From: Roseofilum reptotaenium CS-1145
Lineage (GTDB): Bacteria; Cyanobacteriota; Cyanobacteriia; Cyanobacteriales; Desertifilaceae
Direction: 5' to 3'
Length of the DNA: 64,000 bases
Assembly (NCBI RefSeq): GCF_028330985.1
Contig: NZ_JAQMUE010000035.1
Span: 1 to 64,000, forward strand
This document shows, piece by piece, positions 8,005 through 52,964 of the stretch. A program made the position numbers and the translations under genes. How positions within the stretch are numbered: the first letter of the stretch is position 1; each line of letters begins with the position of its first letter. Under the pieces are notes generated by a model, which had not been told where the DNA came from, did no database searches, and was given only the letters and a program-made list of their open reading frames with translations.

Positions 8005-8979
8005 ATGTCTGTACAATTTACGGTTGCTATCCCCACCTATAATGGCGCAAACCGGTTTCCAGAAGTTTTGGATAAATTGCGCCAACAAACGGGTATCGAT
8101 TCCCTGACCTGGGAAATTATCCTAGTTGATAATAACAGTACGGACAAGACGAAACAAGTTTTTCAAGAGTACCAAAACAATTGGGATTTAGACATTCCCT
8201 TGCGCTATGTCTTTGAGCCACAACAAGGACTTGCTTTTGCTCGACAATGTGCCTTTCAAGTAGCGCAAGGAGAGTGGGTGGGTTTTCTTGATGACGATAA
8301 TTTACCCTATCCCAATTGGTTGATTTCAGCTTACCAGTTTGGGCAAGTACATCCTAAAGCGGGAGCATTGGGTAGTCAGGTTCACGGTTTATTTGAATCT
8401 CCTCCTTCAGAAGAGCTTAAACCCCTCCTACCTTATTTAGCTCTGGTTGAACGAGGTTCTAAACCCCGACTCTACTCTCCTCGAAATAACCTCCTTCCTC
8501 CAGGTGCTGGTATTGTCATTCGCAAACAAGCCTGGTTAGAAAGTGTGCCGGAAAAATTAACCTTAAGCGGAAGAATCAACGGTAAGTTTATTAGTGGTGA
8601 AGATTTAGAGCTACTATCCTACATTCAAAACAAAGGCTGGGATATTTGGTACAATCCAGCGATGGAATTGGATCATAAAATTCCCCCTTGGCGTTTAGAA
8701 CGAGATTATTTAATTCAGATGTTTCGAGGAATTGGTCTGAGTCGATATGTTACTCGTACCTTAAAAGCTAAGGATTGGCAGAGGCTTTTGATTTATCCCC
8801 TTTATATGATCAATGATACTAGAAAGCTTTTAATGTTGCTACTGCGCTACCGCGATCGCGTCCAATCTGATATCGTTGCAACCTGTCAATTAGAAATTCT
8901 CCTCAATAGTTTGAGGAGTCCATTTTATTTGTGGATGCAAGGGTATTTTAATAAGACAATTGATAGGTCTAAAGTTTGA
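8005..8979 (+). CDS. hpsE: family 2 glycosyltransferase, HpsE-like (copy 1)
   Basis: 324 residues, GT-A fold. The N-terminal TVAIPTYNGANRFPEVLDKL and EIILVDNNSTDKT, the DxD-type metal site GFLDDDNLPYPNW at about 92-104, and the acceptor-side block SGEDLELLSYIQNKGW at about 194-209 are typical of HpsE, a glycosyltransferase of the hormogonium polysaccharide locus used for gliding. A good ribosome-binding site (GAGAGGAAAA) precedes the ATG. It is followed by a homologous gene of exactly the same length. The rest of the hps locus is absent from the window. Assignment to HpsE rather than another GT2 is by recalled family sequence only. Confidence 0.75.
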   Translation: MSVQFTVAIPTYNGANRFPEVLDKLRQQTGIDSLTWEIILVDNNSTDKTKQVFQEYQNNWDLDIPLRYVFEPQQGLAFARQCAFQVAQGEWVGFLDDDNLPYPNWLISAYQFGQVHPKAGALGSQVHGLFESPPSEELKPLLPYLALVERGSKPRLYSPRNNLLPPGAGIVIRKQAWLESVPEKLTLSGRINGKFISGEDLELLSYIQNKGWDIWYNPAMELDHKIPPWRLERDYLIQMFRGIGLSRYVTRTLKAKDWQRLLIYPLYMINDTRKLLMLLLRYRDRVQSDIVATCQLEILLNSLRSPFYLWMQGYFNKTIDRSKV

Positions 8980-46370: not shown

Positions 46371-46772
46371 TTAGGCGGGTAAGTGACCTGTTTTCGCGTA
46401 AAGTAGACAACCTTCCTGACTAAAAGGTGAATGACTGCTACCAACAGGAGACCTTAACCAAGTCCCTTTGGGATACTTGCCATACTCATCTTCCCAGACT
46501 CCATCCAAAACCAACACTTCTGAGCTACTTGAATGGGTATAGTGAGGATAATGTGTTAGAGCTTCCCACTTCATGAGAAAGACTTGTTCTGTATGAAAGC
46601 AACGTAGGGGCATCATTTGTAAACCGGAAACTTCTCCTGGTTGCCAAGATGCCTGGTTGGTATCGATGCAGACGTGGTTTTGGTCTTTAGGGGACATTTG
46701 GCAGAGTTTAACAAAGATAGTACAGCCCTCTTGACATTTTTGTAATACTTTTGTAGCATAAAGATGGGCCAA
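46371..46772 (-). CDS. cupin domain protein, ChrR-like
   Basis: 133 residues, a single cupin fold resembling the C-terminal cupin of the anti-sigma factor ChrR: MPLRCFHTEQVFLMKWEALTHYPHYTH near 54-80 with possible metal His, then SSSEVLVLDGVWEDEYGKYPKGTWLRSP. There is no zinc anti-sigma domain. The true start may be Met26 (46697, MSPKDQNHVC), since residues 1-25 are not typical. No sigma factor gene is near. It lies beside the tRNA array. Confidence 0.65.
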   Translation of the reverse strand: MAHLYATKVLQKCQEGCTIFVKLCQMSPKDQNHVCIDTNQASWQPGEVSGLQMMPLRCFHTEQVFLMKWEALTHYPHYTHSSSSEVLVLDGVWEDEYGKYPKGTWLRSPVGSSHSPFSQEGCLLYAKTGHLPA

Positions 46773-46838
46773 GGGAAAAAGAGCCTGAAATCTCTATCTC
46801 AAGCTATGTATATTGAAAACTAAAGAAATCCGTTTTAT

Positions 46839-46913
46839 GGGGTTGTAGCTCAGTTGGTCTAGAGCGCCTGTCTGTCGAACAGGAAGTCACGGGTTCAAAT
46901 CCCGTCAGCCTCG
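46839..46913 (+). tRNA. tRNA-Asp (anticodon GUC)
   Basis: 75 nt full cloverleaf. Acceptor GGGGTTG/CAGCCTC (with G2-U71 and U5-G68), D stem GCTC/GAGC, anticodon stem CCTGT/ACAGG with loop CTGTCGA, T stem ACGGG/CCCGT with loop TTCAAAT, discriminator G. No encoded CCA. First of six tRNA genes. Confidence 0.92.
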
Positions 46914-46915
46914 TT

Positions 46916-46991
46916 AGCAGTGTAGCTTAATGGTTAAAGCCCCAAGCTCATAACTTGGTCGATGTGGGTTCAAGTCCCACCACTGCCACCA
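46916..46991 (+). tRNA. tRNA-Met or tRNA-Ile (anticodon CAU), CCA encoded
   Basis: 73 nt plus encoded CCA (46989-46991). Anticodon stem CCAAG/CTTGG with loop CTCATAA, T stem GTGGG/CCCAC, D stem GCTT/AAGC. The acceptor AGCAGTG/CACTGCC leaves an A1-C72 mismatch. It lacks the three G-C pairs of initiator tRNA, so it is elongator Met or lysidine-type Ile. It begins 3 nt after tRNA-Asp. Confidence 0.88.
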
Positions 46992-46994
46992 AAT

Positions 46995-47068
46995 GTAGGG
47001 ATAGTGTAACGGTAACATCCTAGTCTCCAAAACTAGAATTTGAGGTTCAAATCCTTATCCCTACGCCA
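46995..47068 (+). tRNA. tRNA-Trp (anticodon CCA), CCA encoded
   Basis: 71 nt plus encoded CCA (47066-47068). Acceptor GTAGGGA/TCCCTAC, D stem GTGT/ACAT, anticodon stem CTAGT/ACTAG with loop CTCCAAA, weak T stem TGAGG/CCTTA with a G-U pair, loop TTCAAAT. It begins 3 nt after the preceding CCA. Confidence 0.9.
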
Positions 47069-47071
47069 AAT

Positions 47072-47144
47072 GGCCCCATCGTCTAGCGGCCAAGGACGTT
47101 CGACTTTCTATCGAAAAACACGGGTTCGAGTCCCGTTGGGGCTA
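47072..47144 (+). tRNA. tRNA-Glu (anticodon UUC)
   Basis: 73 nt. Acceptor GGCCCCA/TGGGGCT (G1-U72), anticodon stem TTCGA/TCGAA with loop CTTTCTA, T stem ACGGG/CCCGT with loop TTCGAGT. Position 37 is U where a purine is normal. No CCA. Whether it serves chlorophyll synthesis cannot be told. Confidence 0.88.
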
Positions 47145-47206
47145 TAGGACTTTGCGCTGGTCATGAGTAATGTGGGGGTGTTGTCAGTTATCCCAGCATG
47201 ATGCTT

Positions 47207-47278
47207 TGCTCTGTGGTGTAATGGCAACATCTCGCACTTTGAATGCGAAGATTCCAGGTTCAAGTCCTGGCGGAGCAG
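47207..47278 (+). tRNA. tRNA-Gln (anticodon UUG)
   Basis: 72 nt. Acceptor TGCTCTG/CGGAGCA, D stem GTGT/ACAT, anticodon stem TCGCA/TGCGA with loop CTTTGAA, T stem CCAGG/CCTGG with loop TTCAAGT, discriminator G. No CCA. Separated from tRNA-Glu by 62 bp. Confidence 0.9.
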
Positions 47279-47296
47279 TCAATTAATTTTTCGGTT

Positions 47297-47372
47297 GGGT
47301 GGTTGGCAGAGCGGTAGATGCATCCGGCTTTTAACCAGAATCAGATAGGTTCAACTCCTACACTACCCCCCA
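47297..47372 (+). tRNA. tRNA-Lys (anticodon UUU), CCA encoded, poorly paired
   Basis: 73 nt plus encoded CCA (47370-47372). Acceptor GGGTGGT/ACTACCC, anticodon loop CTTTTAA. The anticodon stem TCCGG/CCAGA has a C29-A41 mismatch and the T stem ATAGG/CCTAC an A49-C65 mismatch; the discriminator is C. It may be decayed. Confidence 0.78.
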
Positions 47373-47499: not shown

Positions 47500-48141
47500 A
47501 TGGATATTCAAATTAAGTTGTTTGACGATCTTCCTTTACTAAACGAAGTTCTGGACAACGGACTTTATCAAACCGTTTATGAATGTTTTTCAACTCCTCC
47601 ATTTAATGAAAATGTTGTCCGTGAAAACGTTGAGTTTTATTTTCAAAAATATGTTCAATTTGGTAGTTTGCATCTTGCCTACTGTCAGGAGAGACCTATC
47701 GGTTTTATTGGAACTCTCCCGTTAGCTGAGACCAAAGAATTCAGAGAATTGTCGTTTCTGGGAACTTATGCTAATTTTCAGGGCAAGAAAGTTGAGCTAA
47801 ATCAAGAATTCTTTAGTCAGCAAACACACTATAGAATTGAGGAATTCCGGTGTGTTTCTGATGTGGGAGTAGCCTTGGATTATCGTAAGCTAGGTTTAGC
47901 TAAACGGCTTTTACAAAGTGTATTTGCTTATTTTGATGATTCTACACCTTATATCTTGAGGACTACCGGCGATCCTGACTTTGCTTATGTGGTTGAACTG
48001 TATCAAAAAGTGGGATTTACCCTTGTACCCGTGACTCAAACAGTGGAATATCTTAACAAAGAAGGAGTACTGACTCAGAGAGAGAGCTGCATTTGTGTTA
48101 AATTGCCATCAGCATCTTCCATGGTTTCTAACTCAGGATAA
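47500..48141 (+). CDS. GNAT family N-acetyltransferase
   Basis: 213 residues with the acetyl-CoA binding pattern of GNAT proteins, VSDVGVALDYRKLGLAKRLLQSVFAYF at about 119-145 (the R-x-x-G-x-A loop as RKLGLA) and VVELYQKVGFTLVPVT at about 165-180. Acceptor unknown. It starts 127 bp after tRNA-Lys and may belong to the same mobile segment. The 3' end overlaps the convergent M14 gene by 14 bp. Confidence 0.78.
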   Translation: MDIQIKLFDDLPLLNEVLDNGLYQTVYECFSTPPFNENVVRENVEFYFQKYVQFGSLHLAYCQERPIGFIGTLPLAETKEFRELSFLGTYANFQGKKVELNQEFFSQQTHYRIEEFRCVSDVGVALDYRKLGLAKRLLQSVFAYFDDSTPYILRTTGDPDFAYVVELYQKVGFTLVPVTQTVEYLNKEGVLTQRESCICVKLPSASSMVSNSG

Positions 48142-49804: not shown

Positions 49805-50336
49805 CAGGACAATAGAGTGAGATTGTTTTATAATTGAGGATATTTTAGGACAAATAATCCAGATGATCAAGAAAAAGCTCAATTGGAGATTGCAGCGCAA
49901 ATCTACTTGGATCAGATTGTCAATCTTGAGTATGATCTTGATCAGCATTTCCTGGGGAGGATGGAAAACCATGTTACAGATGCCAGGGGAAAGTTATCGG
50001 GATGCCCTGTCACCTTTAACGATAGAAGAGCAACAATTGGCACGAGATCTAGAAGCGGATGTCAACGAAATTGCCTCTGAACCCCATAATTATCTGGCTT
50101 ATAATCGTTTACTGGCAACGGTTCAGTATCTAGAAACTGCTTTTGCAGATTCAGGATATCAAGTTAATCACTACAAATACAGGATTGATGACCAAGAATT
50201 TGATAACTGAGAAGTCGAAATCCCAGGCAAAACTAAAGCTGAAGAAATTATTGTAATTGGCGCTCATTATGACTCCGTAGCTCATGTTCCCGGAGCCAAT
50301 GATAATGGTTCAGGAGCAGCAGCAGTTTTAGCCTTA

Positions 50337-51480
50337 TACTATTTCTCTATGAAGTTGCGCTTAATAAGGCATCGACCAAGTAGTCCCATCCAGTAATCGA
50401 GGCGATCGTTACCTTATCGAAGGAATCAAGGACTTGTGAAAGCCTTTGCTGTAGGCTTTTCAGGTCTTTACAGTTCTGCCATCTTAGCTTGGCTTTTAAT
50501 TCTTCCCATAATCGCTCAATGGGGTTGAGTTCCGGGCTATAAGCCGGTTGAAAAATGGGAATTATATTTTCTGGGAAATCTATATTTTTATGACAACCTG
50601 CATTATCTAGTTGCAGAAAATTCAGAGTTTCTGGAAATTCTTTTGATAACTGATTTACAAATAACTGAAAACACTGACCCTCTAGATGAGAAAACTCATA
50701 AAAATAGCTTTCTCCACTGATTATATCTACCGCACCATACAGATAAAAGTTCTCCCTTTTCCACTGTACACTTCCCTCGGGTTTCACTCCCTTTAGGGTA
50801 ATCTTCTTTCCCCCAATTGTCTTGAGTCCTCAACGAGTCTCATCTCCCGCCAAGTATCTACACTTTTCCCCTTTTCCCAATAGCTTATACAATACACTTA
50901 AGGCTGATTTGATTTTTTTTTAAACGTTTCTTCTGCTTCCTTATGCTGATTTACGCTTCTCGGACGAGGCGTTTTTAATTTCCCTCCTAATTTATATCTC
51001 ACCGTTTTATGAACCGTTTTATACTTGACTATCTCTCCCTGTTTTTCCTGCAACCATTCCTGAATTTCTCCATAACTATTAAATCCTTTCGGCTCATTTA
51101 GTCTCTCAGATAACTTCTCTAACAACTCTCCCTTAATTTTTCTTTCTTTTCCTGGCGCTTTTTTTACTTCTAATAGTTCCCTTATTCGACCTTTTCCATA
51201 CTTTCTTAACCAACGAGTAATTGTTGCTTCATTCCTGCATAGCCTTTGACTTAGCTCTTTTCTCGTCGATACTTTACCTATTTTTAGCCAATACAGCATT
51301 TGTAATCTTTCCTTTTCACTGGCTGTTTTTGACTTGCTTAAGCGATTTTGAAGTTCCCCCACACTTTCTGAGACACTCACTTTTAACCGACCTGCCATAA
51401 ATACCTCTATATTCCTTTGCTCTTTTCTACCCATTATTATACCCTTTCCCATGAAGCGCAGCTTCATAGGGAAAGGGTAT
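50337..51480. mobile_element. IS630-type insertion sequence, about 1.14 kb
   Basis: Imperfect 26-bp terminal inverted repeats: left TACTATTTCTCTATGAAG, right complement TACCCTTTCCCTATGAAG, followed in both by a TGCGCTT block. A TA target duplication (IS630 type) fits both junctions inside M28 copy 1, where removal restores the reading. The right end is itself a long palindrome (about 51440-51479). It carries one transposase in two frames on the minus strand. Confidence 0.88.
50347..51398 (-). pseudogene. IS630-type transposase with frameshift and internal stop
   Basis: The first frame (from Met at 51398, MAGRLKVSVSES, to 50898) holds the HTH part: TRKELSQRLCRNEATITRWLRKYG and EVKKAPGKERKI. 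It stops just after a run of nine A (50913-50921, coding strand). A -1 shift there restores the second frame, which continues GDETR then a TGA near 50829-50831, then GLKTIGGKK and the DDE half with FLQLDNAGCHKN and PAYSPELNPIERLWEELKAK. The A-run shift could be programmed, but the extra stop argues for a dead copy. Confidence 0.8.
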
Positions 51481-52049
51481 TAGCTTGTAGATTTGCGGGA
51501 AAACCACAACAGCGAACCCTGAGATTTTTAGAATTTGTCTATGAAGAACCCCCTTTTTTCGGGACACCCGATATGGGAAGTTTAGTCTATGCCAAAATTT
51601 GTAAGCAGCGCCAAGACAATATTGTGGGGATGATAAGTTCAGAAACTCTGGGATACTATTCTGATGAACTAGGAAGTCACCAGTATCCTACGCCTTTAAA
51701 TTTATTTTATCCCCTGCAAGGTAACTTTATTGCTTTTATTGGTAATATGGATTCTGGTAACTGGGTAAAACAAGTCATTGGATCGTTTCGTCAGCATACT
51801 CAATTCCCCTCGGAATGGGCAGCCTTTCCTAACCTTTTACCAGGAATTAGTTGGTCAGATTATTGGTCATTTTGGCAGCAGGGATATCCAGCTTTAATGA
51901 TTACGGATACGGCTCCCTTTCGCTATCCCTATTATCATACGGCTGAAGATACTCCGGATAAAATTGATTATGGGAAATTAGCGCGAGTTGTGGCAGGGTT
52001 AGAGCGAGTCATCCATGATGTTACCCATTATATAAATTAATAGAAAACT

Positions 52050-52964
52050 ATGTTAAAGATGCCAGGGGAAAGTTATCAGGATGCACTCTTGCCTTTGATG
52101 GTAGAAGAGCAAGCATTAGCAAAAGAGCTAGAGGTCGATGTCAAGGAAATCGCCTCCGAACCCCATAATTATCTCGCTTATAATAATTTACTGGTAACGG
52201 CTCAGTATCTAGAAACTGAGTTTACTTGTGCAGGATATCAAGTTACTCACTACAAATACAGGATTGATGACCAAGAATTTGACAACTTGGAAGTCGAAAT
52301 TCCAGGCACAACTAAAGCGGAGGAAATTATTGTAATTGGCGCTCATTATGATTCTGTAGCTCATGTTCCTGGAGCTAATGACAATGGTTCGGGAGCAGCA
52401 GCAGTTTTAGCCTTAGCTCGGCGGTTTGCGGGAAAACCACAACAGCGAACCCTGAGATTTGTAGAATTTGTGAATGAAGAAAATCCTTTTGGCTGGACAG
52501 AAGATATGGGAAGTTTAGTTTATGCCAAAATTTGTAAGCAGCGCCAAGACAATATTGTTGGCATGATGAGTCTGGAAACTATGGGATACTATTCTGACAA
52601 GCCAGGGAGTCAACAGTATCCTGCTCCTTTAAATTTATTTTATCCTCTGCAAGGAAACTTTATTGCTTTTGTTGGGAATCTTGACTCTGGGAACTGGGTA
52701 CAACAAGTAATAGGATCGTTTCGTCAGCATACTCTCTTTCCATCAGAGGGGGCAGCACTGCCTAACTTTTTGCCAGGAGTTGGATGGTCGGATCATTGGT
52801 CATTTTGGCAGCAAGGATATCCCGCTTTAATGGTTACTGATACTGCTCCTTTTCGCTATCCCTATTACCATAGGGTTGAAGATACCCCAGATAAGATCAA
52901 TTATGGGAAATTAGCGCGAGTTGTGGCAGGTTTAGAGCGAGTGATTCGTGATGTTGCCAATTAG
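52050..52964 (+). CDS. M28 family metallopeptidase, copy 2
   Basis: 304 residues, close to copy 1 but beginning at what is an internal Met of copy 1 (MLKMPGESYQDA), so it lacks the membrane segment. Zinc ligands are intact: His99 and Asp101 (GAHYDS), Asp111 (GANDNGSGAAAVL), Glu143/144 (VNEENPFG). The sequence has no stop or frame break. It is probably an aminopeptidase but without its export or anchoring signal, so its location may have changed, or it may be a remnant of the duplication. Starts 9 bp after the copy 1 stop. Confidence 0.85.
   Translation: MLKMPGESYQDALLPLMVEEQALAKELEVDVKEIASEPHNYLAYNNLLVTAQYLETEFTCAGYQVTHYKYRIDDQEFDNLEVEIPGTTKAEEIIVIGAHYDSVAHVPGANDNGSGAAAVLALARRFAGKPQQRTLRFVEFVNEENPFGWTEDMGSLVYAKICKQRQDNIVGMMSLETMGYYSDKPGSQQYPAPLNLFYPLQGNFIAFVGNLDSGNWVQQVIGSFRQHTLFPSEGAALPNFLPGVGWSDHWSFWQQGYPALMVTDTAPFRYPYYHRVEDTPDKINYGKLARVVAGLERVIRDVAN

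Follow-up and report, generated by a model that had tools for sequence, protein, structure and literature searches.

The closest described relative of the locus reported here is the trn operon, or L-array, of Anabaena PCC 7120, a set of 26 genes on the delta plasmid that is silent in normal growth (PMC10272220 and PMC9938897, in excerpt). According to the excerpted text of PMC10272220, the operon is induced by antibiotics that act against translation and is repressed by TrcR, a ribbon-helix-helix protein that binds a box on the −10 element of the trn promoter. Large-phage and mycobacterial tRNA arrays (PMC5966550 and PMC6409571) share with the present one the density of their genes.

The window analysed here is a stretch of 64,000 bases, positions 1–64,000 of the 69,138-base contig C35 in a draft genome of 5.67 Mb and 113 contigs (hereafter G000). 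It contains an array that, like the Anabaena operon, consists of tandem redundant tRNA genes, one of them tRNA-Asp (GTC), with a TrcR-type box on the −10 element and with a predicted trcR orthologue located elsewhere. It differs from the Anabaena operon in having six genes instead of 26, in flanks that look chromosomal and not plasmid-borne, in the lack of an adjacent HNH endonuclease gene (all8564-like) and in the GNAT gene that stands behind it. The plasmid arrays of Tolypothrix PCC 7910, Nostoc PCC 7524 and Nostoc C057 (L145–L147) likewise begin with tRNA-Asp and follow the order Met/CAT, Trp, Gln (TTG), whereas they hold 16, 20 and 24 tRNAs and have an HNH gene directly before them. A further group of cyanobacterial loci has the box, a similar tRNA order and a tRNA type common to both, but there trcR and the HNH gene lie 1.4–3.7 kb before the box; in the present genome the two are on a different contig, C109, with no array beside them.

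We propose, with a probability of about 0.8, that this array belongs, in shortened form, to the cyanobacterial trn operon (L-array) family and is under TrcR control. The kind of locus is already known; what is distinctive here is the trimmed form, together with the separation from trcR and a GNAT neighbour. A preliminary description of this DNA had seen a kinship with the Anabaena delta-plasmid cluster, and this view holds; homologous arrays lie in cyanobacterial genomes and plasmids. The description overlooked the main point, namely the presence at the array of a predicted operator of the kind that governs a known, regulated stress operon.

The six tRNA genes and their genomic copies

ARAGORN and the Rfam model RF00005 both identify six tRNA genes on the + strand, at about 46838–47372, and no others in the window. 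All six exceed the RF00005 gathering score of 29. The array opens with tRNA-Asp (GTC; 46839–46913, 70.3 bits), which has no encoded CCA, followed by a CAT-anticodon tRNA called as Met (46916–46991, 65.3 bits), tRNA-Trp (CCA anticodon; 46995–47068, 61.8 bits), tRNA-Glu (TTC; 47072–47144, 58.7 bits), tRNA-Gln (TTG; 47207–47278, 62.5 bits) and tRNA-Lys (TTT; 47297–47372, 42.6 bits). The spacers are, in order, 2, 3, 3, 62 and 16–18 nt. The preliminary description, which had reported six tRNA genes on one strand with short spacers, three of them with an encoded CCA, was correct on each of these points, the CCA ends belonging to the CAT, Trp and Lys genes. The CAT tRNA, in which cmscan marks one non-standard pair, may be an elongator Met or a lysidine-type Ile. 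In tRNA-Lys, the lowest-scoring of the six, cmscan marks two non-standard pairs (four positions). Its homologues in three sister arrays of congeners score 57.1, 55.7 and 47.8 bits against 42.6 here, and the gene may be decaying.

A search of the genome with RF00005, incomplete in that 150 of 360 candidates were scored, gave at least 52 matches, 46 of these outside the array. ARAGORN calls on contigs other than that of the array include Asp-GTC (C83), Trp-CCA (C23, C60 and C7), Glu-TTC (C100), Gln-TTG (C75), Lys-TTT (C88) and CAT tRNAs (C88 and C3). A third non-array CAT tRNA, missed by the RF00005 search, was recovered on C103 by a wider pattern scan and is also called as a tRNA by ARAGORN. 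The idea that the array might be the only source of a CAT tRNA, considered while the first scans showed two others, was dropped because of this copy. The tRNAs Ile (GAT), Arg (ACG) and Leu (TAA), which are expected in any such genome, are absent from the ARAGORN list of RF00005 matches obtained in the incomplete scan. Every isoacceptor of the array has a separate copy elsewhere in the genome. The array genes are not the sole genomic copies of the six tRNAs, and the array duplicates tRNAs that the cell already has, as had been supposed from the sequence; the view that it is unusual for its genome also holds.

Predicted promoter and TrcR-type operator

A promoter is predicted upstream of tRNA-Asp at 46731–46759 on the + strand, with a −35 element TTGACA (46731–46736), a 17-nt spacer and a −10 element TAGCAT (46754–46759). 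It matches the consensus at 10 of 12 positions, in a region that holds four promoter-like sites against 2.2 in shuffled sequences. The same layout is found at the head of both arrays of the congener G001. The −10 element is overlapped by a sequence matching a tandem TrcR-type operator, TGTAATAC-TTT-TGTAGCAT (46741–46759, + strand). The motif published for the trcR promoter, written as GTAATACNNNTGTAGTAT, matches positions 46742–46759 with one mismatch. At up to one mismatch it occurs at four sites in the 5.67-Mb genome, one being the head of the array and another the trcR promoter. With two mismatches allowed, 11 genome sites were found against 6 for the reversed pattern, and therefore weak matches elsewhere mean little. 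It is this genome scan with the published motif that constitutes the independent test of the operator, and not the pattern TGTARTAYNNNTGTAGYAT, which was drawn after the G000 site had been viewed and has zero mismatches there by construction. Because both half sites of the array box depart from the consensus TGTAGTAT, binding of TrcR to it may be weak.

The association between box and array extends to other genomes. The tandem box, with at most one mismatch and within 400 bp of the first tRNA, is present at 12 of 20 array heads, a sample that includes G000 itself and both G001 arrays and leaves out L002 and L016, whose heads were not covered. Two of the eight heads without it (G003 and G041) have a single TGTAGTAT. 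When about 85,000 genomes were scanned for the promoter plus tandem box, at least 115 stretches were returned. The 80 listed contain 82 sites, and their titles, judged by the genus names, are all cyanobacterial. Among the matches listed, 74 sites have at least 500 bp available downstream, and 26 of these are followed within 3 kb by at least five tRNAs on the same strand. At none of the 74 listed were three or more tRNAs found in the available part of the 3 kb upstream, a stretch that is incomplete for some of them. A cut of at least three downstream tRNAs gave 32 of the 74 sites listed; the cut of five was chosen because several of the small counts look like false ARAGORN calls. The other 48 of the 74 listed sites, which do not stand before five or more tRNAs, may mark other TrcR targets.

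Homologous arrays in cyanobacteria

Each array tRNA is 61–75% identical to its own isoacceptor elsewhere in the genome, the C103 tRNA being outside the comparison. The best matches to arrays of other genera reach 90.7% for Asp, 90.4% for CAT, 87.3% for Trp, 89.0% for Glu, 88.9% for Gln and 89.0% for Lys. For tRNA-Glu, 42 array copies of other genera have a median identity of 63%, which is lower than the 75.3% to the genome's own copy. Moreover, the order of the genes is conserved: over 36 arrays, the pairwise order among the six isoacceptors agrees with that of the window in 311 of 336 cases, against 168 on average and 207 at most in 2,000 permutations. L003 was left out of this comparison as seemingly the same region as L225, and the 36 arrays are not independent because some are near-identical (L004 and L005). 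Up to 29 tRNAs, on one strand and in a largely similar order, are found at the related loci, and many of these loci have 11–29. Plasmid matches to the array come from Nostoc, Tolypothrix and Calothrix, among others.

The trcR orthologue and its HNH neighbour

Contig C109 encodes a 110-residue protein whose gene has the box ATACTACACTGATATTAC 31–48 nt before its ATG. At positions 44 and 72 it has Leu and Ala, as reported for TrcR; these are the positions changed in published BMAA-resistant TrcR mutants (PMC10272220, in excerpt). The protein is 55–72% identical to other cyanobacterial copies from outside the genus, an alignment that does not include the Anabaena protein. By its length, its presumed autoregulatory box, Leu44 and Ala72 and this level of identity, we assign it as the predicted trcR orthologue. 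The Pfam family RHH_4 gives a weak match (0.11), and no solved relative was found at a threshold of 1. Relatives of TrcR occur in all six genomes of the genus and in 53 of the 59 genomes searched, our own included.

Beside trcR on C109 lie, in divergent orientation, an HNH gene and a small ORF; the genome's tRNA list, drawn from the incomplete RF00005 scan, shows no array there. The HNH gene, a frequent but not defining trait of such arrays, is absent from the neighbourhood of the window array. In a wider sample of 26 arrays, 11 have trcR no more than 4 kb upstream of the box, or by hand count 11 of the 16 for which at least 3 kb of upstream sequence is available; 13 of the 26 have an HNH gene within 4 kb. 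Because trcR and HNH, often joined to arrays in other genomes, are on C109, the array stands apart from its usual partner locus in this lineage. No discussion of the trcR-HNH-array linkage was found in the excerpts of PMC10272220. Loci at which trcR, a divergent HNH gene and an array occur within about 4 kb are L150, L155, L163, L166, L172, L195, L197, L201, L216, L225 and L227.

Distribution within the genus

Arrays occur in three of the six genomes of the genus, at three sites. G001 shares the site of the window, with flanks about 96% identical, and has a second, eight-gene array on its contig C52; G003 carries twelve tRNAs at a third site. The other three genomes (G002, G004 and G005), all drafts, gave only weak matches to the array, none better than 2e-6 and, where listed, of the housekeeping tRNA-Asp type. 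The cluster is therefore not found at this place in all relatives.

At the window site, the upstream gene is followed in G005 by remnants of the GNAT gene and of an M14 peptidase gene, with no array and no cupin. A simple insertion of the array at this site was considered, but because the G005 GNAT and M14 sequences are broken, a deletion in G005 is as likely as an insertion in G000 and G001. Contig C115 of G004 (L265, 1385–1501) has about 115 bp between flanks where G001 C52 has about 3 kb with the eight-gene array. It is an array-free allele of the C52 site and gives no direction. The 62-nt spacer between tRNA-Glu and tRNA-Gln (47145–47206, + strand), a possible deletion scar, stands where the C52 array (L106, 6392–6568) has a tRNA-Arg (ACG) and a defective tRNA-like gene. 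Because a similar spacer is present on G001 C208, this difference predates the split between the window array and that of G001.

On our reading the unit has been gained, lost, moved and trimmed in this genus, and we infer that the array lost genes from a longer ancestor. Horizontal acquisition, advanced in the preliminary description together with a phage source, is plausible, and the distribution in the genus is patchy, as expected; the phage part of that claim is unsupported, as set out below. Descent with repeated loss and movement inside cyanobacteria may also account for the pattern.

Two duplications were noticed in G001. An array tRNA-Asp is split in its T arm, its parts lying on C118 (L108, about 4671) and C208 (L105, about 11019), and the two broken ends share a match to one 15-base stretch, window 46892–46906, as would be expected of an integrase attachment site. 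On C52 (L106, 6690–8317), a stretch of about 54 bases from the tRNA-Lys 3′ region is found again some 1.5 kb downstream (87% identity, 8264–8317), on the far side of an ORF whose product, judged by eye, looks like a formylglycine-generating enzyme; this resembles a second att-like duplication.

Proposed function and alternative explanations

By analogy with Anabaena, the array would be a second tRNA set that is normally silent and transcribed as one unit from a promoter covered by TrcR, the ribbon-helix-helix repressor sitting over the −10 box. On inhibition of translation, TrcR would fall and the promoter would open. The precursor would be cut into mature tRNAs supplementing or replacing housekeeping tRNAs that are damaged or trapped, and the cell would benefit under stress. 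The GNAT gene behind the array may be co-induced. In the genus, such a unit would have been gained, lost, moved and trimmed down to the six genes that here lie away from the trcR-HNH locus. On this reading, the TrcR-controlled reserve tRNA operon also occurs in a lineage where a short unit stands apart from trcR, against a background in which an array and its operator, often accompanied by trcR and HNH, are neighbours across cyanobacteria. In a unit of six genes, the question of which reserve tRNAs are important becomes tractable: should this set be enough for stress tolerance, it would point to the isoacceptors in greatest danger.

The unit, which is without the HNH gene and most tRNAs of the longer members, may nevertheless have lost its function. 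It would then be a decaying remnant of a trn operon, homologous and with its operator kept, from which useful tRNAs are no longer made. We regard this as unlikely, although it deserves serious weight. The reduction to six genes from the 11–29 tRNAs of many related loci, the two broken pairs of tRNA-Lys with its 42.6 bits, the altered half sites of the operator and the wrecked GNAT and M14 sequences in array-less G005 are what such decay would leave. However, five of the six tRNAs score 58–70 bits, the promoter and three CCA ends are retained, and the GNAT gene and array remain together in both G000 and G001.

Large phages commonly carry dense tRNA arrays, and a phage or phage-like element could have brought the array, which would serve, or once have served, phage translation. 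The tRNA-Asp of the array is matched at 85–88% by genes of cyanophages, and TrcR homologues are reported in two cyanophages (PMC10272220, in excerpt). We nevertheless consider this origin very improbable. None of the 90 matching phage records covers 80% of the query. The best 20 of the 90 cover at most 15%, mostly with a single tRNA and never with more than two. The promoter box and two tRNA cores gave no exact match in viral contigs, in scans with exact patterns that would miss distant relatives, and a search of the phage collection with the TrcR orthologue gave nothing at 1e-5. Finally, no phage family was found by Pfam among ten neighbouring proteins, and the phage derivation put forward earlier is not supported by these searches.

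Equally improbable is an ordinary chromosomal cluster belonging to the housekeeping set, to which the ordinary genes of the flanks, collinear with G004 over about 4.7 kb (83%), would conform, but for which the separate copies of each isoacceptor, the three genomes of the genus in which no array was found and the closer similarity of the tRNAs to those of other arrays are not expected. The shortened TrcR-controlled operon is the explanation that we retain.

Genes flanking the array

A gene for a GNAT-family acetyltransferase (47500–48141, + strand; Pfam Acetyltransf_1, 1.5e-6) begins about 127 bp after tRNA-Lys. A terminator scan of the region found none on the + strand between them, and the gene is possibly in the same transcription unit as the array. 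It is kept after the array in G001. Matches to it were found in 6 of 99 genomes: close and intact in G000 and G001, as fragments in G005, and at 26–34% identity in G029, G046 and G068. Since close intact copies are confined, among these 99 genomes, to G000 and G001, the link between GNAT gene and array is local to this lineage. The protein has no solved relative at 0.1 and no plasmid match at 1e-5. On the other side of the array lies a divergent ORF for a ChrR-type cupin (46371–46772, − strand; Pfam Cupin_7, 3.2e-23), whose listed TTG start overlaps the array promoter; its true start may lie inside the ORF.

Two GNAT genes and one cupin gene are among the targets of TrcR in Anabaena (PMC10272220, in excerpt), and the presence of both types beside the array is suggestive only. 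A bolder version of the proposal, which we hold to be rather doubtful, would make array and GNAT gene one TrcR-controlled operon, by which a cell under translational stress would produce spare tRNAs along with an acetyltransferase whose target is the translation apparatus or the stressor. In a wider sense, trcR, HNH and array would make up a self-regulated unit that was repeatedly gained, trimmed and moved among cyanobacteria.

Further downstream, at 49971–52040, transposase pieces (HTH_32 and DDE_3 ORFs), which we take to be IS630-like, interrupt an apparent degraded M28 peptidase gene, and an intact M28 copy adjoins it at 52050–52964.
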